This document shows, piece by piece, positions 4,857 through 17,369 of a DNA stretch of 64,000 bases. Position numbers and translations under genes: made by a program. Below the pieces are notes generated by a model that ran no database searches, was not told where the DNA came from, and saw only the letters and a list, made by a program, of their open reading frames with translations. Position 1 is the stretch's first letter; every line of letters begins with the position of its first letter. This stretch comes from Polyangia bacterium (lineage in GTDB: Bacteria > Myxococcota_A > Polyangia > Fen-1088), in the NCBI GenBank assembly GCA_036268875.1, contig DATATI010000020.1, forward strand, positions 248,001 through 312,000. Reading direction: 5' to 3'.

Positions 4857-6617
4857 ATGAATATCCTGGGCCTGAACGCCTTCCACGGAGACGCCTCCGC
4901 CGCCCTGGTGAAGGACGGCCAGCTGGTGTCGGCCATCGAAGAAGAACGCCTGAACCGGCACAAACACTGCGCGGGTTTCCCGTCGCTGGCCAGCAAGGCG
5001 GTCTTGCAGCACGGCGCGGTCGCTCCGTCCGAGCTGCAGCACGTGGCCCTCTCGCGCGATCCCAAGGCCAACCTGCACAAGAAGATCCTCTTCGCGTTAC
5101 AAAAGCGGCCGTCGTTCACCAAGATGGTGAAAAGCCGCCTGGCCAACGTGGCCAAAGTGCGCGGCGTCGACGAGGCCCTGCGCGCCGCCCTGGCCCCCGA
5201 CGGCGATCGGGTGACGGCCAAGTTCCACAACGTCGAGCACCACAAGTCGCACATCGCCAGCGCCTTCTTTGTCTCGCCGTTCGAAGAAGCGGCCTGCCTG
5301 TCCATCGATGGATTCGGCGACTTCGTGTCGACCATGCGCGGCACCGGGCGCGGCCTGGATCTGAACATCATCGACCGGATCGAGTTCCCGCACTCGGCCG
5401 GGCTTTTTTACACGGCGGTGACGCAGTTCCTGGGCTTTCACAAGTACGGCGAGGAATGGAAGATGATGGGCCTCGCCCCCTACGGCAAGCCCGCCCACGT
5501 CGCCGAGCTGCGCCACCTGATCCACACGCTGCCCGACGGGCGCTTCGAGCTGGGCCTGGATTATTTTCAACACCACACCGACGGCGTCGAGATGTCCTGG
5601 GACGAAGGCTCGCCGCGTCTCGGCCGGGTGTTCTCCGACAAGCTTGCCGAGCTGCTCGGCCCGGCGCGCGATCCCGAAGATCCGGAGTTCTTCGGCAAGT
5701 GGGCGGACATCGCGCACAGCGCGCAGATCGTTTACGAAGAAATTTTCTTCCACGTCCTGAGAGATCTGCACGCCCGCACCAAGCTGACCAGGTTGTCGCT
5801 GGCCGGCGGCTGCGCGCTGAACTCGGTGGCCAACGGCAAGATCTTCGAGCAGACGCCCTTTCGCGAGGTCTATGTGCAGCCGGCGGCCGGCGACGACGGC
5901 ACGGCCATCGGGGCGGCGTTTTATGTCCAGCACGCGGTGCTGCGGCGGCCGCGCGCCTTCGTGATGGAGCACGCGTACACCGGTCCGGCCTTCGACGACG
6001 CCGCCATCGAAATGGCGATCAACAAGGCGCGGGCCAACGGCTGGGACGCCGGCGTGTCCGTTCGCCGCGTCGACGACGAGACCTTGTACCGCGACGTCGC
6101 CACCGCCATCGCGGGCGGCCAGGTGGTCGGCTGGTTTCAGGGCGGCATGGAGTTCGGGCCGCGGGCGCTGGGCGATCGCTCGATCGTCGCCGACCCGCGC
6201 CGCGCCGACATGAAGCAGATCCTGAACACCCGCATCAAACACCGCGAGACCTACCGTCCGTTCGCCCCCAGCATCATCGAAGAAAAAGTGCACGACTTCT
6301 TCGAACGGGCAGAGCCGTCGCCGTTCATGTTGATGGTCTACAAGGTGCGACCCGAACGGCGCGCCCGCATCCCCGCCGTCACCCACGTCGACGACACCGG
6401 CCGTGTGCAGACCGTCAGCGCCAAGACCAACCCGCGTTATCACCGTTTGATCAGCGAGTTCGCCAGACAGACCGACGTCCCCCTGGTGCTGAACACCAGC
6501 TTCAACGAGCACGAACCCATCGTCGCCACGCCCGGCGAGGCCATCGCCTGCTATCTGAAGACCCGGATGGACGTGCTTGCCCTGGGCAACTGGGTCCTGT
6601 CCCGAGCGCCTTCATGA
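4857..6617 (+). CDS. Carbamoyltransferase (NodU/CmcH/TobZ family)
   Basis: Transfers a carbamoyl group from carbamoyl phosphate, usually via carbamoyl-adenylate, to a hydroxyl of a sugar or antibiotic scaffold. The N-terminal ASKHA-like domain begins MNILGLNAFHGDASAAL and includes EEERLNRHKH. The metal-binding HHKSHIAS lies near residue 129 and the DGFGDF phosphate loop follows. The C-terminal domain has EFGPRALGDRS near residue 431 and a late VLNTSFNEHEP motif. Length 586 aa is normal. Its stop overlaps the next start as ATGA, so it is translationally coupled to a lipid-linked glycan initiating transferase. This suggests carbamoylation of a surface glycan. Confidence 0.9.
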   Translation: MNILGLNAFHGDASAALVKDGQLVSAIEEERLNRHKHCAGFPSLASKAVLQHGAVAPSELQHVALSRDPKANLHKKILFALQKRPSFTKMVKSRLANVAKVRGVDEALRAALAPDGDRVTAKFHNVEHHKSHIASAFFVSPFEEAACLSIDGFGDFVSTMRGTGRGLDLNIIDRIEFPHSAGLFYTAVTQFLGFHKYGEEWKMMGLAPYGKPAHVAELRHLIHTLPDGRFELGLDYFQHHTDGVEMSWDEGSPRLGRVFSDKLAELLGPARDPEDPEFFGKWADIAHSAQIVYEEIFFHVLRDLHARTKLTRLSLAGGCALNSVANGKIFEQTPFREVYVQPAAGDDGTAIGAAFYVQHAVLRRPRAFVMEHAYTGPAFDDAAIEMAINKARANGWDAGVSVRRVDDETLYRDVATAIAGGQVVGWFQGGMEFGPRALGDRSIVADPRRADMKQILNTRIKHRETYRPFAPSIIEEKVHDFFERAEPSPFMLMVYKVRPERRARIPAVTHVDDTGRVQTVSAKTNPRYHRLISEFARQTDVPLVLNTSFNEHEPIVATPGEAIACYLKTRMDVLALGNWVLSRAPS

Positions 6618-8125
6618 GAACAGCCTTCACCGCTTTTCTCATGTCCATGCTGTGCGCCGCCGCGCTGACCCCGCTGGTGCGCACCATCGCCCTGCGACTG
6701 GGTGTCCTCGACCACGCGCTGTCGTCGCGCAAGATTCACGGACGACCGGTGCCGCGCCTGGGCGGCATCGCCATGGTGATCTCGTTCTACGTTCCCTTGC
6801 TGGCGCTGTACTTCTTCCGCAGCGAGGTGGGCCGGCTGTTCTTGATCGAAGGCAACCAGGCCATCGGCCTGTTCGTGGGCGGCATCATGATCGCCTTGCT
6901 CGGTGTCTACGACGATCTGCGGGGCGCCGGCGCCAAACGGAAATTCGCCGTGCAGTTCGCGGTGGCCGGGCTGCTTTACTACCTCGGCTTTCGCATCGAC
7001 AACCTGGCCAACCCGTTCGGAGCGCCGATTCCCCTCGGCTGGGTGGGGATGCCGTTCACGCTCTTGTGGATGGTGGGCGTCATCAATGCCATGAACTTGA
7101 TCGACGGCCTGGATGGCCTGGCGGGCGGCGTGGCGTTGGTGGCGGTGACCACCACGTTCCTCATCGCCCTGCAGCGCGGGCACCCGCTGATGATCTTGTT
7201 CTCGGCGGCGCTGGGCGGATCGATCCTGGGATTTCTGTTTTACAACTTCAACCCGGCGTCGATCTTCATGGGCGACACCGGCAGCATGTTCCTGGGGTTC
7301 GTCCTGGCCGCCAGCGCCATCCAGACCAATCAGAAATCGTCGACGGCGGTGGCGGTGCTGATCCCGGCCATTGCTCTCGGCTTGCCGATCTTGGACACGC
7401 TCTTGGCCATGAGCCGGCGGGCGGTGCGCGGCCGACCCCTGTTTCGCGCCGACAAAGAACACATTCACCACCGCTTGCTGGCCCTCGGGCTTTCGCACCG
7501 GCAAGCGGTGCTGTTTCTGTATGCCTTGTGTGTGGTGTTCGGTGCGCTGGCGTTGATGCTGACCTATGCCACCAGCGGCGAGGCAGCGGCGATCCTGGTC
7601 GTGCTGGGCATCCTGTCGTTCATGTTTCTGCGCTGGCTGGGCTACATCCAGCTGGAACAGTTCATGCCCGAACAGCGGCGGCGCAGCCGGGCCCTGCGCG
7701 CCGCCGTTCGCCCGTTCGCCGAGCGCCTGCGCCGCGCCGCCAACATCGACGAGGTGTGGACCAGCGTGCGCGAGGTGACGTCTGTGTTCGACGCCAAGTG
7801 CGTGCGCCTGGATCTCTTTTCGCGCAGCAACGGGCGGACGCCGACGCCGCTGTCCTTCGCCATGGGCTTTGACGAAGCGGCCGACGCCGGCAGCACGGCG
7901 AAGCTGTTTCGCGCCCGGTTCATCCTGGTGGGCGTCAAGCCCGACGACGGCGCGGTGGAGCTGGCCTGGGACGACGGCCGCAAGGAACTGGACCGCGACA
8001 CCGAGATCGCCATCGAACTTTTCTGCGACTACCTGGCCCAGGCCTGCGATCGGGTGCGCGAGGCGGTGGTGCCGGCGGCCGAGTCGGACAGCGGCAAGAA
8101 CGGCCATCGTTCGTTGGTCGGATAG
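6614..8125 (+). CDS. WecA/MraY-like polyprenyl-phosphate glycosyl-1-phosphate transferase with C-terminal extension
   Basis: Integral membrane enzyme that transfers a sugar-1-phosphate (GlcNAc-1-P in WecA) from a UDP-sugar to undecaprenyl phosphate, starting a lipid-linked glycan. Family motifs in order: PRLGGIAM, YDDLRGAGAKRKF, MNLIDGLDGLAGG near residue 162, FMGDTGSMFLGF, and HIHHRLLALG near residue 283. The start is the ATG at 6614, coupled by ATGA to the carbamoyltransferase. At 503 aa it is about 150 residues longer than ordinary WecA. The extra soluble C-terminal part (about 340-503) has an alpha/beta look and no motif I can name. Coupling suggests the lipid-linked sugar and the carbamoyl modification belong to the same pathway. 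Confidence 0.9.
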   Translation: MRTAFTAFLMSMLCAAALTPLVRTIALRLGVLDHALSSRKIHGRPVPRLGGIAMVISFYVPLLALYFFRSEVGRLFLIEGNQAIGLFVGGIMIALLGVYDDLRGAGAKRKFAVQFAVAGLLYYLGFRIDNLANPFGAPIPLGWVGMPFTLLWMVGVINAMNLIDGLDGLAGGVALVAVTTTFLIALQRGHPLMILFSAALGGSILGFLFYNFNPASIFMGDTGSMFLGFVLAASAIQTNQKSSTAVAVLIPAIALGLPILDTLLAMSRRAVRGRPLFRADKEHIHHRLLALGLSHRQAVLFLYALCVVFGALALMLTYATSGEAAAILVVLGILSFMFLRWLGYIQLEQFMPEQRRRSRALRAAVRPFAERLRRAANIDEVWTSVREVTSVFDAKCVRLDLFSRSNGRTPTPLSFAMGFDEAADAGSTAKLFRARFILVGVKPDDGAVELAWDDGRKELDRDTEIAIELFCDYLAQACDRVREAVVPAAESDSGKNGHRSLVG

Positions 8126-10826: not shown

Positions 10827-11354
10827 ATGTCCGCCAAGACCCGCACCGCCAGCGCATCCCCGAACGGCGACGTCTGGCAGTCGTTCCTGACCAAGAAACG
10901 GCTGAAGTCCACCAAGCAGCGCGACCTGATCGTCGACGAGTTCATGGCCATGCGCGGCCACATCAGCCTGGACGATCTGCACGCTCTGGTGCGGGCCAAG
11001 AACCCGGCGGTGGGCTTCTCGACGGTGTACCGCACCATGCGTCTGCTGGAAGAGGCGGGCCTGGCCCACGAGCGGCACTTCGAGCAGGGCCGCACGCTGT
11101 ACGAACGGGCCGACGCCCGATCACACCATGATCACCTCATCTGCGAGAAGTGCCACCACATCATCGAGTTCGAAAACGACGCCCTGGAGGCCCTGCAGCG
11201 CAAGGTGGCCATCGGGTTCGGCTTCATCATCACCAACCACCGCCACGAGATCTACGGTCTTTGCCCCAAGGCCCGCGGCGAAGCTGACGGGTACTGCCCG
11301 GCCGAGATGGCCAAGGCGCGCTCCGGCGTGGTCAAGCTGCGCCGCAGCTCGTAG
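10827..11354 (+). CDS. fur: Fur-family metalloregulator with altered zinc site
   Basis: 175-aa DNA-binding repressor of the Fur/PerR/Zur family. A winged helix (KRLKSTKQRDLIVDEF through STVYRTMRLLEEAGL) is followed by the dimerisation domain. HHDHLICEKCHHIIEF holds regulatory-site histidines and the first structural-zinc CxxC. The second CxxC, normally YGLCxxC, reads YGLCPKA; the next Cys comes 11 residues later in DGYCP. The structural zinc site is therefore changed or rebuilt as a wide C-x10-C. The gene sits 54 nt before a putative iron operon whose promoter carries a Fur-box-like palindrome. Fur, PerR and Zur cannot be told apart from sequence; context favours iron. Confidence 0.88.
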   Translation: MSAKTRTASASPNGDVWQSFLTKKRLKSTKQRDLIVDEFMAMRGHISLDDLHALVRAKNPAVGFSTVYRTMRLLEEAGLAHERHFEQGRTLYERADARSHHDHLICEKCHHIIEFENDALEALQRKVAIGFGFIITNHRHEIYGLCPKARGEADGYCPAEMAKARSGVVKLRRSS

Positions 11355-11377
11355 CCGTCGGCGGTGAACCTTGGCTC

Positions 11378-11406
11378 TTGACCGATTTCCGCAACCGGTG
11401 TACTGA
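11378..11406 (+). promoter_or_regulatory. Putative promoter of the DUF1111-imelysin operon
   Basis: TTGACC (11378-11383) matches the -35 consensus at 5 of 6 positions and is 17 nt from TACTGA (11401-11406), a weak -10. The Fur-box-like palindrome begins 2 nt after the -10. The monohaem gene on the other strand has the same arrangement. Confidence 0.4.
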
Positions 11407-11408
11407 AA

Positions 11409-11425
11409 TTGAAAGTGATATTCAA
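11409..11425. promoter_or_regulatory. Fur-box-like operator, copy 1
   Basis: TTGAAAGTGATATTCAA is a 17-bp near-palindrome (TTGAA-N7-TTCAA) resembling Fur boxes of the TTGAAA-type. It lies just after a putative -10 element and overlaps the first codons of the DUF1111 gene. A second site with the same TTGAAAGTnAnAnTCAA pattern is found at 15555-15571 before a haem lipoprotein gene. Binding by the Fur protein encoded at 10827 is inference. Confidence 0.55.
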
Positions 11426-12692
11426 AATCCCTTTCATCGCCAGCGGCGCCCTGCCGATGGTCCTGGCGATCTGGCCGGCGGCTTGCGGCGGCGACAACAT
11501 GGCGGCGGGCAACCCCGGCGCCGGCGGCACCGGCGGGATCACGGTGATCCATGACGATCTCGGCGATCAGCCGGTGACCAAACTCAGCGGCGATCAAATC
11601 CAGATGTTTCACCTGGGCGATGGCCTGTTTGATCTGCCCTTCCGGGACAGCGACGGCCTGGGCCCGCTTTACATCCGCAACGCCTGCGGCGACTGCCATC
11701 AGAACGGCGGCCGCGGGCCCGGGTCGGTGCACAAATTTCAGATGATGGGCCCCGATGGCCAGCCGGTGGCGACGGCGCCCGAGGTGGCCTACGGCGACAC
11801 GGTTCGCCCGTACGTCGCCGGCGGCGGCCAGACGCCCATCCAGGCGCCGGCCGACGTCAACGCGCCCGACCAGCTGGTGCAAAGCGTGCGCGTCGGTCCG
11901 CCGGTCCTCGGCCGCGGCTACATCGAAGCCATCGACGACGCCGAGATCGAACGCGTCGCAGCCGAACAGGCCACGCGCACCGACGCCATCCACGGACGCA
12001 TCAACCGCGTGGTCTATCACTCTGCGGCCACCAGCCAGGCCTTCATTCACCACACCCTGGGTGAAACCGGCGTCATCGGCCGCTTCGGCCACAAGGCCCG
12101 CGTGTCCACCCTGGACGATTTCACCGCCGATGCCTTTCAAGGCGACATGGGCATGACCTCACCGCTGCGGCCGACCGAGGTGAAGAACCCCGACAATCTG
12201 CTCGACGACGGCAAGCCCGGCGTCGATCTCACCGAGGACAACGTCACCCAGGTGGCGCAGTACGTACGGTCGCTGGCCATCCCTGACCGCGATCCGGCCC
12301 TCATGCAGAGCGCCGGCCGCGCCTTGTTCGATCAAGCGCTGTGCAGCGTGTGCCACGTGCCCAGCCTGCACACGCGCGCCGACAACCCGGTGGCGGTGCT
12401 GGCGGACGTCGACGCGCCGGTGTTCAGCGACATCCTGCTGCACGACATGGGCGACGGCCTGGCCGACGATCTGCCCGACGAATCGGCCGGCCTGCGCGAG
12501 TGGCGGACGGCGCCGCTGATCGCGCTGCGCTTTCAGCACACGTTCCTGCACGATGGGCGCGCCACCACCGTCGCCGACGCCATCGCCGCCCACGCCAGCG
12601 CGGGCTCGCAGGCGAACGATTCAGTGGCCCGCTTTCAGGCGCTCAGCAAAGACGATCAGGCCAGCCTGCTGACATTCGTCCAGGGTCTTTAG
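11409..12692 (+). CDS. Dihaem c-type lipoprotein, DUF1111 / MauG-like peroxidase family
   Basis: 427-aa exported protein of the DUF1111 family (annotated as thiol oxidoreductase or dihaem peroxidase; distant MauG relative). The lipoprotein signal ends at the lipobox WPAAC near residue 26. Two haem motifs are visible, CGDCH near residue 95 within NACGDCHQNGGRGPG and CSVCH near 312. The family-typical LLHDMGDGLADDL and FLHDGRATTVADAI follow. In other bacteria this family pairs with imelysins in iron uptake, and an imelysin is the next gene. The start is uncertain: TTG at 11409 or GTG at 11415 both give a good signal peptide, while the ATG at 11457 is too close to the lipobox. Confidence 0.88.
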   Translation: MKVIFKIPFIASGALPMVLAIWPAACGGDNMAAGNPGAGGTGGITVIHDDLGDQPVTKLSGDQIQMFHLGDGLFDLPFRDSDGLGPLYIRNACGDCHQNGGRGPGSVHKFQMMGPDGQPVATAPEVAYGDTVRPYVAGGGQTPIQAPADVNAPDQLVQSVRVGPPVLGRGYIEAIDDAEIERVAAEQATRTDAIHGRINRVVYHSAATSQAFIHHTLGETGVIGRFGHKARVSTLDDFTADAFQGDMGMTSPLRPTEVKNPDNLLDDGKPGVDLTEDNVTQVAQYVRSLAIPDRDPALMQSAGRALFDQALCSVCHVPSLHTRADNPVAVLADVDAPVFSDILLHDMGDGLADDLPDESAGLREWRTAPLIALRFQHTFLHDGRATTVADAIAAHASAGSQANDSVARFQALSKDDQASLLTFVQGL

Positions 12693-12718
12693 CCCGGGCA
12701 GCAAAGGAGATCCGTCCC

Positions 12719-13768
12719 ATGAGAGCACGAACGTTCGTCATCGCCGCCGCGGGCTTCACTGCGCTGGCGCTGGCCGCCGCCGGCTGCGGCGGCGATTCGC
12801 CGCAAGAACCCGAGGATCAGGCCCTCACCCAGGTGAAAAGTTACATCACCACCAACCTGGACACGCTGGTGATGGCCACGACGCAGATCCGCGACACCGC
12901 GCCCGCCGCCGACGCCGACGGCTGGAACGCCACCGCCGACGCCGCCGCCGTCACCACCATGCGCACCGCCTGGCGCCAGGCGCGCGCCGCCTATGAACAC
13001 ATCGAAGGGGCCATCGCCGTGCTGTTCCCCGATCTCGACGTCTCCACCGACGAGCGTTACGACGCCTTCCTGGAGGAGAACGGGCCTGACGACAATCTGT
13101 TCGACGACCAGAACGTCACCGGCGTGCATGCCATCGAACGCATCCTGTGGGCCGATTCGATCCGTCCCGAGGTGGTGGCCTTCGAATCAAAGCTGGCCGG
13201 TTACAAGGCGACCGCCTTCCCGGCCAGCGCCACCGAGGCGGACGACTTCAAGAACAAGCTTGCCACCCGCCTGGTCAACGACGTCATCAGCATGCGCAGC
13301 ATGTTCACCCCCCTGGCCCTGGACCCGGGCGCCGCCTATCGCGGGGTGATCGGCTCCATCGGCGAGCAGGTGGAGAAGGTCGAAAAAGCGTCAACCGGCG
13401 AGGAGGAGTCGCGCTACGCCGACGAGACGCTGGCCGACATGCGCTCGAACCTGGCGGGCGGCGTGGCCACCGTCGACGCCTTCAAGGCCCTGCTGACGTC
13501 CAAGGCGGGCGGCGTTGATCTCGACGCCAAGATCCACGCCGGCCTGCAGCGTTTACAAGACGCTTACGACATGTTCCCGGGCGCGGCCATCCCGCCGCCG
13601 CCCGCCGACTGGAGCTCGAACATGCCGTCGGACGCCGATCTGGCCACCGACTTCGGCAAGCTGTACACCACGGTGAAAAAGGAATCCGACCAGCTGGCCC
13701 AGGACAGCACGGCGGGTCTGATGACCAACGCCGCCAGCCTGATGGGCATCCCGGTGTTGCCGCCGTGA
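12719..13768 (+). CDS. Imelysin-family iron-uptake lipoprotein
   Basis: 349-aa lipoprotein (signal MRARTFVIAAAGFTALALAA, lipobox AAGC) of the imelysin/EfeO-M75 family, an all-helical periplasmic or surface protein linked to iron acquisition. The family GxHxxE motif is present as GVHAIERILW near residue 134. The second helical-bundle half carries the usual ERY/E-rich helices around YADETLADMRSNLAGG. The start is the ATG at 12719 with AAGGAGA 7 nt upstream. Spacing from the DUF1111 gene is 26 nt and the stop overlaps the next start as GTGA. Known imelysin systems are Fur-regulated and share a DUF1111 partner, as here. Confidence 0.88.
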   Translation: MRARTFVIAAAGFTALALAAAGCGGDSPQEPEDQALTQVKSYITTNLDTLVMATTQIRDTAPAADADGWNATADAAAVTTMRTAWRQARAAYEHIEGAIAVLFPDLDVSTDERYDAFLEENGPDDNLFDDQNVTGVHAIERILWADSIRPEVVAFESKLAGYKATAFPASATEADDFKNKLATRLVNDVISMRSMFTPLALDPGAAYRGVIGSIGEQVEKVEKASTGEEESRYADETLADMRSNLAGGVATVDAFKALLTSKAGGVDLDAKIHAGLQRLQDAYDMFPGAAIPPPPADWSSNMPSDADLATDFGKLYTTVKKESDQLAQDSTAGLMTNAASLMGIPVLPP

Positions 13769-14295
13769 CGATCGAACGGGCCATCGCCATCGCCGGCGGG
13801 GCGCTGCTGCTGCTCACCTTGGGGGCAGGCTGCGGCGCGCCCCCGGTCGACGAACCACCGGCTGACGGAAGCTTCATCGCCTTCGCCCGCGACTTCGCCG
13901 ATTTTCGCAACTGGCCGTCGTCGCAGTTCGACGGCGCGGCCGACGGCAACGTGCACATCGCCGGCACCCGCACGGTGTACATCAACAAGAAACCGGCCGC
14001 CGGGTCCACCGCCTTCGACGTCGGCACGCTGATGGTCAAGACCGTCGACAGCACCGAGATCTTCGCCCGCGCCAAGCGCGGCGGGAATTACAACGTCGAC
14101 GGCGCAGTGGGCTGGGAATGGTTCGAGATGAAAGACACCGACGTTGGCCTGGCCATCGTCTGGCGCGGGATCACGCCGCCCGCTGGTTCCTGTCCTTACG
14201 GCGCCCTGGCCGGCGGCGTCTGCAACGACTGCCACAAGGCCGGCGCCGCCAATGACTTCGTGCTGTCGCCCGCTCTGCAACTGCAAGGAATGTGA
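13765..14295 (+). CDS. Cytochrome P460-like haem lipoprotein
   Basis: 176 aa. The signal is MTIERAIAIAGGALLLLTLG with lipobox GAGC. The body resembles the cytochrome P460 fold: FRNWPSSQFDG, HIAGTRTVYINK, FDVGTLMVKTV and a Trp/Tyr-rich VGWEWFEMK segment. A c-type haem site CNDCH lies near residue 153, close to the C-terminus as in P460 proteins. Whether the Lys cross-link of true P460 exists cannot be judged. The gene is coupled by GTGA to the imelysin gene and takes the place of the fourth gene (DUF1513) seen in some known imelysin operons. A redox step on iron or on a reactive species at the cell surface is inference. Confidence 0.72.
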   Translation: MTIERAIAIAGGALLLLTLGAGCGAPPVDEPPADGSFIAFARDFADFRNWPSSQFDGAADGNVHIAGTRTVYINKKPAAGSTAFDVGTLMVKTVDSTEIFARAKRGGNYNVDGAVGWEWFEMKDTDVGLAIVWRGITPPAGSCPYGALAGGVCNDCHKAGAANDFVLSPALQLQGM

Positions 14296-14298
14296 ACC

Positions 14299-15135
14299 GT
14301 GAAAACACCGCGCTGGTCCCGAACGGTCGTGTTGTTCTCTGTTTCTATTTTGCCATTTACATTATGTATCAGCGCCGCCCGCGCCAACCCGCACCCGCTG
14401 GCCTTCACCTACCCCTCCGAAACCTTGGCCAAGGAAGCGGTCGAGCTCGAGCAATACATCGACGTGACCCCGGTGCGATCAATTGACACCAGCGGCGCCG
14501 AGACGTGGTTTCCACGCACAGTCCTCACCACCGAGCTGGAGATCGGGCTGACCGACAAGCTGGAGCTGGGCCTTTACCTGCAATCCGAGACCGAGTCCGG
14601 CAGTTCGACCGGGGACAATCCGCTGATCTTGGACGGGGTCAAGCAGCGCCTGCGCTATCGTTTGGCCGACCCGGGCGCCTGGCCAGTCGACGTGGCGCTC
14701 TATCTGGAGCTGGCCGAGCTTCACGACGAGCTGGAGCTGGAAGGGAAGATCATCCTGCAACGCCGATTCGGACGGGTGCGCGCGATGGTCAACCTGTGGG
14801 GGGAGCGCGAGTTCTATTTTACCGGCGAGCGCGAGTGGGTGCTGAACCCCACCGGCGGCGTGACCATGGAGCTGACGCCGTCCTGGCACGTGGGCATCGA
14901 ATCGTGGATGCACGCCGAGTACAGCGACAGTCCGCCGCCGACGCTGGTCTCGCCGAGGTACGTCGACATCAACCGGGCGGCCGTCGTTTACGTGGGACCA
15001 AACCTGATGTGGCAGCGCGGCCGCACCTGGGTGACGTTCGCTCCCTACGTGCGCGTCGATCGTCCCGATCGACCCAGCGTGCAGTACGACATCTACGGCC
15101 GCTACTTCCTGCGGATGATCGTCGGCTTCGAATAG
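14299..15135 (+). CDS. Predicted outer-membrane beta-barrel protein of the iron locus
   Basis: 278 aa with a signal peptide (WSRTVVLFSVSILPFTLC...ANPHP). The body is alternating amphipathic strands, for example TELEIGLTDKLELGLYLQSE, VDVALYLELAELHDELELEG, RFGRVRAMVNLWGEREFYF and the terminal YDIYGRYFLRMIVGFE, which ends in an aromatic residue as expected of an outer-membrane barrel. The GTG start at 14299 has AAGGAA 8 nt upstream and is 3 nt after the P460-like gene, so it is the last gene of the operon. It could form the outer-membrane channel or support for the haem proteins. Substrate unknown. Confidence 0.7.
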   Translation: MKTPRWSRTVVLFSVSILPFTLCISAARANPHPLAFTYPSETLAKEAVELEQYIDVTPVRSIDTSGAETWFPRTVLTTELEIGLTDKLELGLYLQSETESGSSTGDNPLILDGVKQRLRYRLADPGAWPVDVALYLELAELHDELELEGKIILQRRFGRVRAMVNLWGEREFYFTGEREWVLNPTGGVTMELTPSWHVGIESWMHAEYSDSPPPTLVSPRYVDINRAAVVYVGPNLMWQRGRTWVTFAPYVRVDRPDRPSVQYDIYGRYFLRMIVGFE

Positions 15136-15157
15136 ATCGCGCTCGGCGGCGTTCGAC

Positions 15158-15550
15158 TTACCGCCGCGCCACCTTCACGTCGCGGGCCGCCAGCAGATAG
15201 TGCAAGACCGCGTTGGCCTCCGGCCCGTCCAGCTTGGCCCGGGCGGCCATCTCGTCGACGAACCGCGGCCACTTGTCGGTGGCGTAGTCGGCCGGCTGCG
15301 GCAAGGCATGGCAGGAGGCGCAGCGCGCGACGAACAGGGCGCGACCCTGGCCAAGCTCGGCCACCGTGGTGGGCTGGCCGCTTTGCGACAAGCGGGCGGC
15401 GTCGGTCTGATTCAGCACCGGCGCCGGCGCGCCGCCCAGCGAGGCGCAGCCGCCCGCCAGCAGGCCCAGCCCGGCCAGGACCTGCCAGGGTCGCTGCCAG
15501 AGCCAGGACCATCGCCTGGGCCCGGAATTCACTCGACTGCCGCCGTGCAT
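15158..15550 (-). CDS. Monohaem cytochrome c lipoprotein with Fur-box-like operator
   Basis: 130 aa from the ATG at 15550. The basic N-terminus (MHGGSRVNSGPRRW) leads into a hydrophobic stretch with lipobox LAGGC. A single haem site CASCH lies near residue 77 within LFVARCASCHALPQP, and FVDEMAARAKL precedes the C-terminus, where a Met ligand is possible. It converges on the beta-barrel gene at 22 nt. Its promoter region carries a second copy of the operator found before DUF1111, so it is probably co-regulated and may pass electrons to or from the dihaem/P460 proteins. A GTG start at 15583 is possible but would put the operator inside the gene. Confidence 0.78.
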   Translation of the reverse strand: MHGGSRVNSGPRRWSWLWQRPWQVLAGLGLLAGGCASLGGAPAPVLNQTDAARLSQSGQPTTVAELGQGRALFVARCASCHALPQPADYATDKWPRFVDEMAARAKLDGPEANAVLHYLLAARDVKVARR

Positions 15551-15554
15551 GAAA

Positions 15555-15571
15555 TTGACTCTTACTTTCAA
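15555..15571. promoter_or_regulatory. Fur-box-like operator, copy 2
   Basis: Read on the minus strand this is TTGAAAGTAAGAGTCAA, sharing TTGAAAGTnAnAnTCAA with the site at 11409-11425. It begins 5 nt downstream of a putative -10 (TGATCT, 15577-15582) and ends 4 nt before the ATG of the monohaem lipoprotein. It also lies about 85 bp before the divergent PNGase-like gene, so it might affect both. Confidence 0.55.
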
Positions 15572-15576
15572 ATTCA

Positions 15577-15605
15577 AGATCACCGGGTCTGGACGTTTCT
15601 GTCAA
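15577..15605 (-). promoter_or_regulatory. Putative promoter of the monohaem lipoprotein gene
   Basis: A perfect -35 TTGACA (15600-15605) is 17 nt from a weak -10 TGATCT (15577-15582) on the minus strand. The weak -10 next to a palindrome matches the layout at 11378-11425. Confidence 0.45.
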
Positions 15606-15655: not shown

Positions 15656-16756
15656 ATGTTTTCGCCTGGCCGCAATTTCCTGCTGGCGGCGCTGCTTTGG
15701 GCGGCTGCCCCCGCGTGCAAGAGCAACACCTCGGCAGCATCGCCCGACGCCGGCGCCGACCTGCCGCCCGCCGGCCCGACCACCACCATGGTGCTCGACA
15801 ACGTCCACATCGGCAGCGACGGCACAAAACCCGATTACCACCTGGCCACCGCACCGCTGGATCTCAGCGCCGGGCCGTTCGTCCAGGCCTCGCTGTCGCT
15901 GGATCTCTCGTCGCCGTGCTTTCCCTTCGAGAAATGGCAGACCGACCGGCCACCAGCCGGACAGAACTGGCCCGCCGACTGCGATGCCTTTGATCGCAAC
16001 TTCGAGATCACCCTCGACGATCCGGTGGCGCCGGCCACCACGCCGCCCGCCATCGAGTTGACCCGAGCCATCACCCCGTTCGGCGGCCCGCTGCACATCG
16101 ACATCGACGTCACCGACATCGCCAACGGCCTGCCCGGCATGCACCGGCTGCAGGTGATGATCCCGACCTTCGCCGATCCCGCCGGCAAGGTCAGCGGATC
16201 GAACGGCGGGTGGTTCATCAGCGCCACCTTGACCACCCAGAGCGGAGCGGCGCCGCGCAAGGTGCTGGCGGTGATCCCGCTGTTCAATGGCTCGCAGACC
16301 ACGCCCGATGCGCTGCCCGCCATTCCCTTCACCGTTCCCGCCGGCGCCACCGCGGGTCGGGTCGAGTATCGCGTCACCGGCCACGGCGCCGGCGCGCCCA
16401 CGGACGGCTGCAACGGCCCCGCCGAGGAATTCTGCCACCGCACGCACAGCGTGTTCGTCGACGACGCCAAGGTGCAGGACGTCGATCCCTGGCGCGTCGA
16501 CTGCGGGGCGCTGTGCACGGTCATGCACAGCCCCGTGCTGAACAACGACTATTGCGCCGAGAATCCCTGCGGCGCCCTCGGCAGCGTGCGCGCCCCGCGG
16601 GCCAACTGGTGCCCGGGCAGCGTCTCGCGGCCTTTCAACATCGAGGCTCCGGTGCTGGGCGCGCCGGGCGACCACACCTTTCATTTCACCATCTCCAGCG
16701 TGGCGATGGACGGCACCTGGCGCATCTCGGCGGTATATTTGGCTTTCGGCAGCTAG
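15656..16756 (+). CDS. PNGase F-like (peptide-N-glycosidase F fold) lipoprotein
   Basis: 366 aa with signal MFSPGRNFLLAALLWAAAP and lipobox APAC. The body resembles the two jelly-roll domains of peptide-N4-(N-acetylglucosaminyl)asparagine amidase F, which removes N-glycans from glycoproteins. Motifs: GAPTDGCNGPAEEFCHRTHS, the DPWR...C segment, and RANWCPGSVSRPFN near the C-terminus, together with many paired Cys. The catalytic acid residues of PNGase F cannot be aligned here with certainty, so activity is not proved. It is divergent from a haem lipoprotein and precedes an ECF sigma gene by about 50 nt. Confidence 0.62.
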   Translation: MFSPGRNFLLAALLWAAAPACKSNTSAASPDAGADLPPAGPTTTMVLDNVHIGSDGTKPDYHLATAPLDLSAGPFVQASLSLDLSSPCFPFEKWQTDRPPAGQNWPADCDAFDRNFEITLDDPVAPATTPPAIELTRAITPFGGPLHIDIDVTDIANGLPGMHRLQVMIPTFADPAGKVSGSNGGWFISATLTTQSGAAPRKVLAVIPLFNGSQTTPDALPAIPFTVPAGATAGRVEYRVTGHGAGAPTDGCNGPAEEFCHRTHSVFVDDAKVQDVDPWRVDCGALCTVMHSPVLNNDYCAENPCGALGSVRAPRANWCPGSVSRPFNIEAPVLGAPGDHTFHFTISSVAMDGTWRISAVYLAFGS

Positions 16757-16808
16757 GTCTTTGGGGCGTCATTTCTCCCCGGTCGGTTCGACAAAGGATG
16801 AGAGCCTC

Positions 16809-17369
16809 GTGCGGTGGTTAGATGGTGACCCAAGCTGGCAGGCCCGCTTTCTGCGTGGAGACAAGGACGTGATGGAGCAGATCTATCGCGACACATTTCA
16901 GGAGGTGCGCGGCGCGGCCAGCGGGGTGCTGCGCGAGCCGGCCGATCGCGACGCCGTCGTACACGAGGTCTATCTGGATCTGCTATCCAGCCGTGAACTG
17001 CGCGAGAGCCACCGCGGCGGCAAGCTGGGCGCCTGGCTGGGCGCCATCGCCCGCCATCGGGCCTTAGACTTCGTGCGCCGCGAAGGCCGCCTGACCGAGC
17101 TGTCAGCCAGCGACGAGGTGGCGCCCGGCCCCGACGCCCTGGACGACTTCCGGCGCGAGCTGACGCGTTTTGCCACCCGCCTGGATCCCCAGCGACGCCG
17201 CCTGCTGGAGCTGCGCTATGTCGCCGGCATGACCCAGATGGAAGCGGCGGCGGCGATGGGAATGTCGCGTTCGACGCTGGAAGATTGGGAACGGCAGCTG
17301 AAGGAATCACTGCACGAATTCCTGGCTCCCGGCACCAGCCGCAAGGCCAGGACGGCGGCCGTCCCATGA
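16809..17369 (+). CDS. ECF-type RNA polymerase sigma factor
   Basis: 186 aa from the GTG at 16809, which has AAAGGA 10 nt upstream; a TTG at 16761 would add 16 residues but has no ribosome binding site. Sigma region 2 is visible as DAVVHEVYLDLLSS...AWLGAIARHRALDFVRREG. Region 4 is LDPQRRRLLELRYVAGMTQMEAAAAMGMSRSTLEDWERQL with its helix-turn-helix. The stop overlaps the next start as ATGA, and the next protein is a membrane zinc-finger anti-sigma candidate, the usual ECF/anti-sigma pairing. The target regulon is unknown; the PNGase-like gene upstream is a neighbour, not a proven target. Confidence 0.86.
   Translation: MRWLDGDPSWQARFLRGDKDVMEQIYRDTFQEVRGAASGVLREPADRDAVVHEVYLDLLSSRELRESHRGGKLGAWLGAIARHRALDFVRREGRLTELSASDEVAPGPDALDDFRRELTRFATRLDPQRRRLLELRYVAGMTQMEAAAAMGMSRSTLEDWERQLKESLHEFLAPGTSRKARTAAVP

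Follow-up and report, generated by a model that had tools for sequence, protein, structure and literature searches.

The locus at positions 10827 to 15605 of the analysed DNA is genuine and recurs in other genomes; it is a variant of the iron operons of the imelysin/di-haem kind (PA4370-4373, EfeOB), in which a di-haem lipoprotein and an imelysin are joined by a P460-like cytochrome. Our preferred reading, to which we assign a probability of roughly 60%, is an iron-starvation operon that captures iron at the outer membrane. The window, i.e., the whole stretch of 64,000 nt that was analysed, covers 248,001-312,000 of contig DATATI010000020.1 in the Polyangia bacterium assembly GCA_036268875.1. 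The first-pass annotation had called the gene set uncharacterised, and indeed no description of this variant was found in the literature searched.

On the plus strand, fur, DUF1111/DHOR, imelysin, P460-like and barrel genes follow each other consecutively, and a mono-haem gene on the minus strand converges at their end. All genes and both palindromes reported by the first-pass annotation are present, on the strands given there. The features are as follows.

10827..11354, plus strand: fur, ferric uptake regulator (Pfam FUR, 4e-31)
11378..11383, plus strand: -35 element TTGACC of the di-haem gene, 37 nt before GTG 11415
11409..12692, plus strand: DUF1111/DHOR di-haem c lipoprotein (Pfam DHOR, 2e-41; two CxxCH, lipobox), with alternative starts TTG 11409 or GTG 11415
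11410..11424, plus strand: Fur-like box TGAAAGTGATATTCA, overlapping both alternative di-haem starts, TTG 11409 and GTG 11415
12719..13768, plus strand: imelysin (M75) lipoprotein with GVHAIE motif (Pfam M75, 5e-16, above cut-off)
13765..14295, plus strand: P460-like mono-haem lipoprotein, GTG start (profile and fold; Pfam 0.04, under cut-off)
14299..15135, plus strand: outer-membrane beta-barrel, 12-13 strands predicted, FapF/COG4313-like fold (AF2/Foldseek; no Pfam match)
15158..15583, minus strand: mono-haem c lipoprotein (CASCH motif, weak PF13442 cytochrome c match), with alternative starts TTG 15571 or GTG 15583
15556..15570, minus strand: second Fur-like box TGAAAGTAAGAGTCA in the mono-haem start region, two mismatches to the pattern
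15600..15605, minus strand: -35 element TTGACA of the mono-haem gene, 34 nt before TTG 15571

The P460-like gene starts across the imelysin stop codon, and 3 nt past its own stop the barrel gene begins, so that the four genes from DHOR to barrel look co-transcribed. Further along the plus strand, the window encodes a lipoprotein with a peptide-N-glycosidase F C-terminal domain (15656-16756; PF09113, 2e-16), a distant relative of which (26% identity) lies at 5779-6996 of locus L082. The gene after it (16761-17369) encodes a sigma factor of the ECF type.

A scan of 84,980 genomes, one per species, with patterns made from myxobacterial sequences, revealed 54 loci with an imelysin of the window type, and every clearly labelled one belongs to the Myxococcota. 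The gene caller used misses genes, and neighbourhoods were therefore cross-checked with tblastn and profiles. With the window included, and with profiles built from the window proteins, the DHOR gene adjoins the imelysin gene in 51 of 55 loci; a P460-like gene follows the pair directly, on the same strand, in 35 of the 55. A search of sequenced Myxococcota for the same gene order had been set beforehand as a check, and the triad recurs in order in these 35 loci. The description of the set as non-standard needs correcting at the same time: scattered families of Myxococcota have the arrangement DHOR-imelysin-P460 as their standard form, and it is normal for this group and not peculiar to the window genome. 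Three Sorangium cellulosum strains are among the 54 loci, and these retain the di-haem protein and the imelysin alone. One record titled as a Klebsiella pneumoniae MAG (L103, CAMAXZ010000002.1) carries the myxobacterial operon; the corresponding genome, G306, was placed in the window's phylum, and the record is probably mislabelled. At a further locus (L208, G154:C1 about 6016000), in a genome carrying the triad as well, the P460-like gene is divergent from a different, canonical imelysin (YHAIEFLLW), and the association of P460 and imelysin thus extends beyond the imelysin subtype of the window.

The distance matrices of the DHOR, imelysin and P460-like proteins correlate (Mantel rho 0.57, 0.35 and 0.42; 0 of 1000 permutations), as is expected of a jointly inherited unit, shared species history contributing as well. 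Co-occurrence was assessed in a phylum sample of 284 Myxococcota genomes. The window-type imelysin was matched in 16 of them (15 strong), and strong matches to the P460-like protein occur in 18, of which 14 also have the imelysin. Both proteins are found together in 14 genomes, the P460-like protein only in four and the imelysin only in one (n=284; Fisher 2e-19). In the sole imelysin-only genome a contig end interrupts the locus, and a P460-like stub begins there. The four P460-like-only genomes are of one genus, where the gene adjoins an ABC-type substrate-binding protein; this neighbour is of the branched-chain-amino-acid type (L212, L215, L216, L217). The P460-like protein had no plasmid matches. 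Were the neighbouring genes functionally unrelated, the inconstancy of the barrel, the mono-haem gene and fur would be readily understood, but order and co-occurrence statistics already contradict such a reading for the triad, and we regard it as very improbable.

The imelysin matches EfeO/Algp7/M75 structures at 6e-20 to 2e-17, and G, H and E of its GxHxxE motif are invariant in the imelysin alignment. Both CxxCH sites of the DHOR protein are invariant among 24 aligned homologues, while a PDB search with this protein returned zero matches. The biochemical function of imelysins and DUF1111 proteins is unsettled (PMC3143127). The window genome has three other DUF1111 places (C66, C75, C21).

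The third protein of the triad is a member of the P460/c'-beta superfamily, and at this level its assignment in the first-pass annotation is upheld. A profile of 43 P460-like members finds Methylococcus capsulatus cytochrome P460 in the PDB (2e-4), and hhalign gives 95%. In its AF2 model (pLDDT 87.9), the best PDB match by Foldseek is cytochrome c'-beta (prob 0.69, TM 0.49-0.54, E 0.28), a moderate match and the only sensible one. The C-terminal CxxCH is present. Within the family, identity is about 40%, and similarity to characterised P460/c'-beta members is weak.

The alignment to these proteins was fixed by the key positions published for McP460, Lys78, Asp102 and Arg50 (PMC11928373). Accordingly, Lys92 of the window protein, in the motif GTLMVK, aligns with the cross-link position Lys78, where the 43 members carry 35 K, 4 H, 3 E and 1 R. 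The Glu type, present like His in some members at this column, was called uninvestigated in a review. An invariant lysine in a KRGG motif was considered as the cross-link residue and rejected, because only the GTLMVK lysine fits the Lys78/Asp102/Arg50 spacing and is Phe in c'-beta proteins. Phe100 occupies the position of the Asp102 carboxylate (29 F, 13 H and 1 P; n=43, alignment-dependent). Superfamily membership and the lysine conserved in 35 of 43 members would also be expected of a true cytochrome P460 oxidising hydroxylamine or NO. However, the distal carboxylate of active P460s is replaced by Phe or His in 42 members, NsP460, with the lysine and without the carboxylate, does not oxidise hydroxylamine (PMC11928373), and the operon context is of the iron type. 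With the lysine kept and the carboxylate missing, hydroxylamine oxidation is unlikely, and we consider a true P460 the least credible of the alternatives discussed here. The sequence rather predicts a P460-type haem that would serve another purpose.

The end of the operon is exchangeable. Among the 54 loci, the gene after the P460-like gene encodes a barrel of the window type in eight, a different putative porin in nine (with the P460-like gene missed by the gene caller in one or two cases) and a TonB-dependent receptor in two. The alternative porin (c3) gave zero matches in a PDB sequence search, and its label as a porin thus follows solely from the appearance of its sequence. In a locus of the window's own family (L137), a TonB receptor, TonB and a barrel lie upstream of the operon and a second barrel downstream. 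Relatives of the barrel occur in 44 of 193 genomes of the class. At least 14 loci have the barrel, followed by a mono-haem lipoprotein like that of the window, without the imelysin operon, and several of these separate loci are preceded by a Fur-like box. Since the pair recurs separately, two modules come together in the window, one of di-haem/imelysin/P460 and one of barrel/mono-haem. The first-pass annotation had proposed that a P460-like cytochrome and a barrel replace the usual fourth partner, with the mono-haem protein as an addition to the set. This replacement is upheld, with the P460-like protein as third gene; the barrel turns out to be one of several exchangeable outer-membrane proteins; the mono-haem gene is present and convergent, but belongs with the barrel. 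Two tandem barrel genes were also seen at L043, beside an imelysin-DHOR-imelysin-HTTM (vitamin K carboxylase-like) cluster, which represents a second type of imelysin operon.

The AF2 model of the barrel (pLDDT 87.6) has 13 strand segments, and Foldseek matches FapF with E 2e-7 and FapF/COG4313 channels with TM 0.6-0.73 at 7-12% identity. As modelled, the barrel is an outer-membrane pore and not a clear member of a family. Together with such a pore, Gly or Ala after the lipoprotein Cys suggests that lipoproteins and pore are located at the outer membrane, where either face would fit, whereas the first-pass annotation had considered the cell surface. With its several haem-binding lipoproteins, a pore and Fur-like control, the locus might also be read as one for haem uptake, with the barrel as a haem channel and imelysin and P460-like protein as haem carriers. 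Against this, c-type CxxCH sites imply that the haem is built in, the site in imelysin structures is too small for haem barring a conformational change (PMC3143127), and the neighbours scanned show no recognised haem oxygenase or haem ABC transporter. Haem uptake therefore appears quite improbable.

As to regulation, the window Fur scores best with the Fur models of NCBIfam (82-90 bits, vs 58 for PerR and 49 for Zur; all under cut-off), matches solved Fur proteins at 5e-24, and has the metal-site motifs HHDHL and NHRHEIYG as well as CxxC. A fur gene next to the operon was seen in none of the 54 related loci; in the window, its position is incidental or local. One further Fur-family gene (C52) is present in the window genome. 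What recurs is the box: a Fur-like box scoring at least 11/14, a score reached by shuffled sequence in a few per cent of trials, lies at or near the DHOR start in 32 of 48 related loci with enough upstream sequence, and about a third of the related loci lacked a convincing one in this box scan. The claim of Fur control is thus supported to the extent that further species, too, have Fur-like boxes ahead of the operon, while an adjoining fur gene was seen in the window only.

The whole 6.15 Mb genome has a single exact match to TGAAARTNAYWTTCA, which is TGAAAGTGATATTCA. When two mismatches or fewer are allowed, forward matches number 27 and reverse matches 28, vs 9 and 7 for the reversed control, and in this search of the window's own genome the other matches are mostly intragenic. 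No other clear iron uptake gene led by such a box was found in the window genome, so that the box lacks an anchor to a known regulon there. The genome has 11 TonB plug matches and no convincing FeoB; its FeoB_N matches are weak and resemble other GTPases.

At 12 loci the box contains an in-frame start codon, typically the NTG of (N)TGAAAxT..., and consequently also codes for the beginning of the signal peptide (MRIVFK, MKIVFI, MKTVFN; LKVIFK in the window). A -35 element TTGAC or TTGAT begins 37-40 nt upstream of that start codon in 8 of the 12, including the window, where GTG 11415 is 37 nt from TTGACC 11378. For random NTG in the same loci, a -35 element at 34-42 nt occurs in 0.9% of cases. 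As box definition and start choice derive from the same data, the more independent line of evidence is the -35 spacing. With such a spacing, transcription would begin no more than a few nt from the start codon, and a Shine-Dalgarno-like sequence is mostly missing. Judged from both, the mRNA is probably leaderless and would be repressed by Fur over its start codon. In the literature searched, no paper combines leaderless transcripts, a Fur box and the start codon.

The same genes might instead protect the periplasm from peroxide or nitrosative stress, as a defence induced with iron starvation: the di-haem and P460-like proteins would then act as peroxidases or bind NO, while loose iron would be buffered by the imelysin. 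DHOR is annotated as a putative peroxidase, c'-beta proteins bind gases, and one with a polar pocket has peroxidase-like activity (PMC11928373). However, the imelysin in nearly all loci and the exchangeable outer-membrane receptors and porins point to uptake; moreover, the box resembles those of Fur, and the regulator encoded next to the operon is nearer to Fur than to PerR. We hold such a defence to be unlikely, if deserving more weight than the other alternatives.

Iron capture by an outer-membrane redox module remains our best reading; it builds on adjacency, triad order, distance correlation, co-occurrence and Fur-like boxes, and on an outer-membrane protein as last gene, TonB receptors included, in many loci. 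Known imelysin/DUF1111 operons are Fur-regulated and linked to iron uptake (PMC3143127). Iron specificity, Fur binding and redox direction are inferred, the sequence being compatible with reduction as well as with oxidation of the iron. With iron plentiful, Fe-Fur would sit on promoter and start codon of the di-haem and mono-haem genes and block both. With iron scarce, a leaderless transcript would yield three lipoproteins (DUF1111 di-haem, imelysin and P460-like) and the 12-13-strand pore, the mono-haem lipoprotein being made from its own Fur promoter. The pore, replaced in relatives by another porin or a TonB receptor, may let iron complexes through the outer membrane to its periplasmic face. 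There, the haem proteins would either change the redox state of the iron or remove its ligand, with electrons exchanged between them and supplied by the extra cytochromes; the freed iron would be bound by the imelysin for onward transport.

The mode of action of imelysin and di-haem proteins is a question that is narrowed by a clade pairing them with a P460-family cytochrome and exchangeable pores: the haem partner has the P460 lysine without the catalytic carboxylate, and a TonB receptor can take the place of the pore. In the literature searched, no paper names imelysin together with cytochrome P460. The operon suggests a job for 'half-way house' P460 proteins, and a compact Fur control with the operator over the start codon of a leaderless message. 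As a tentative proposal, a P460-type cytochrome with a lysine cross-link might be a redox enzyme of iron acquisition, in an operon where one element would serve both as Fur operator and as start codon of a leaderless lipoprotein mRNA; if true, this would be the first role of the P460 cofactor outside nitrogen chemistry.

Among known systems, PA4370-PA4373 (ICMP) of Pseudomonas aeruginosa and VC1264-1266 of Vibrio share the imelysin beside DUF1111 and the lack of an EfeU permease; both are Fur-regulated (PMC3143127), as the window operon may be, judged from its Fur-like boxes. Unlike PA4370-4373, the window has one imelysin, the di-haem gene first, the P460-like gene third, the barrel fourth and a Fur box on the start codon, and neither DUF1513 nor a second imelysin of the PA4370-4373 type is found in its operon. 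The ferrous system EfeUOB/EfeM likewise pairs an imelysin-domain protein (EfeO/EfeM) with a haem enzyme. EfeU permease and DyP-type EfeB are absent among the ten window proteins scanned, there is no cupredoxin domain, and the proteins are lipoproteins, whereas those of EfeUOB are soluble and periplasmic. With cytochrome P460/c'-beta, the P460-like protein shares the beta fold, the C-terminal CxxCH and the cross-link Lys; in contrast to the characterised members, it is a lipoprotein of an iron-type operon and has no distal carboxylate. FapF/COG4313 channels share the 12-strand barrel fold, but the window barrel is paired with haem lipoproteins.
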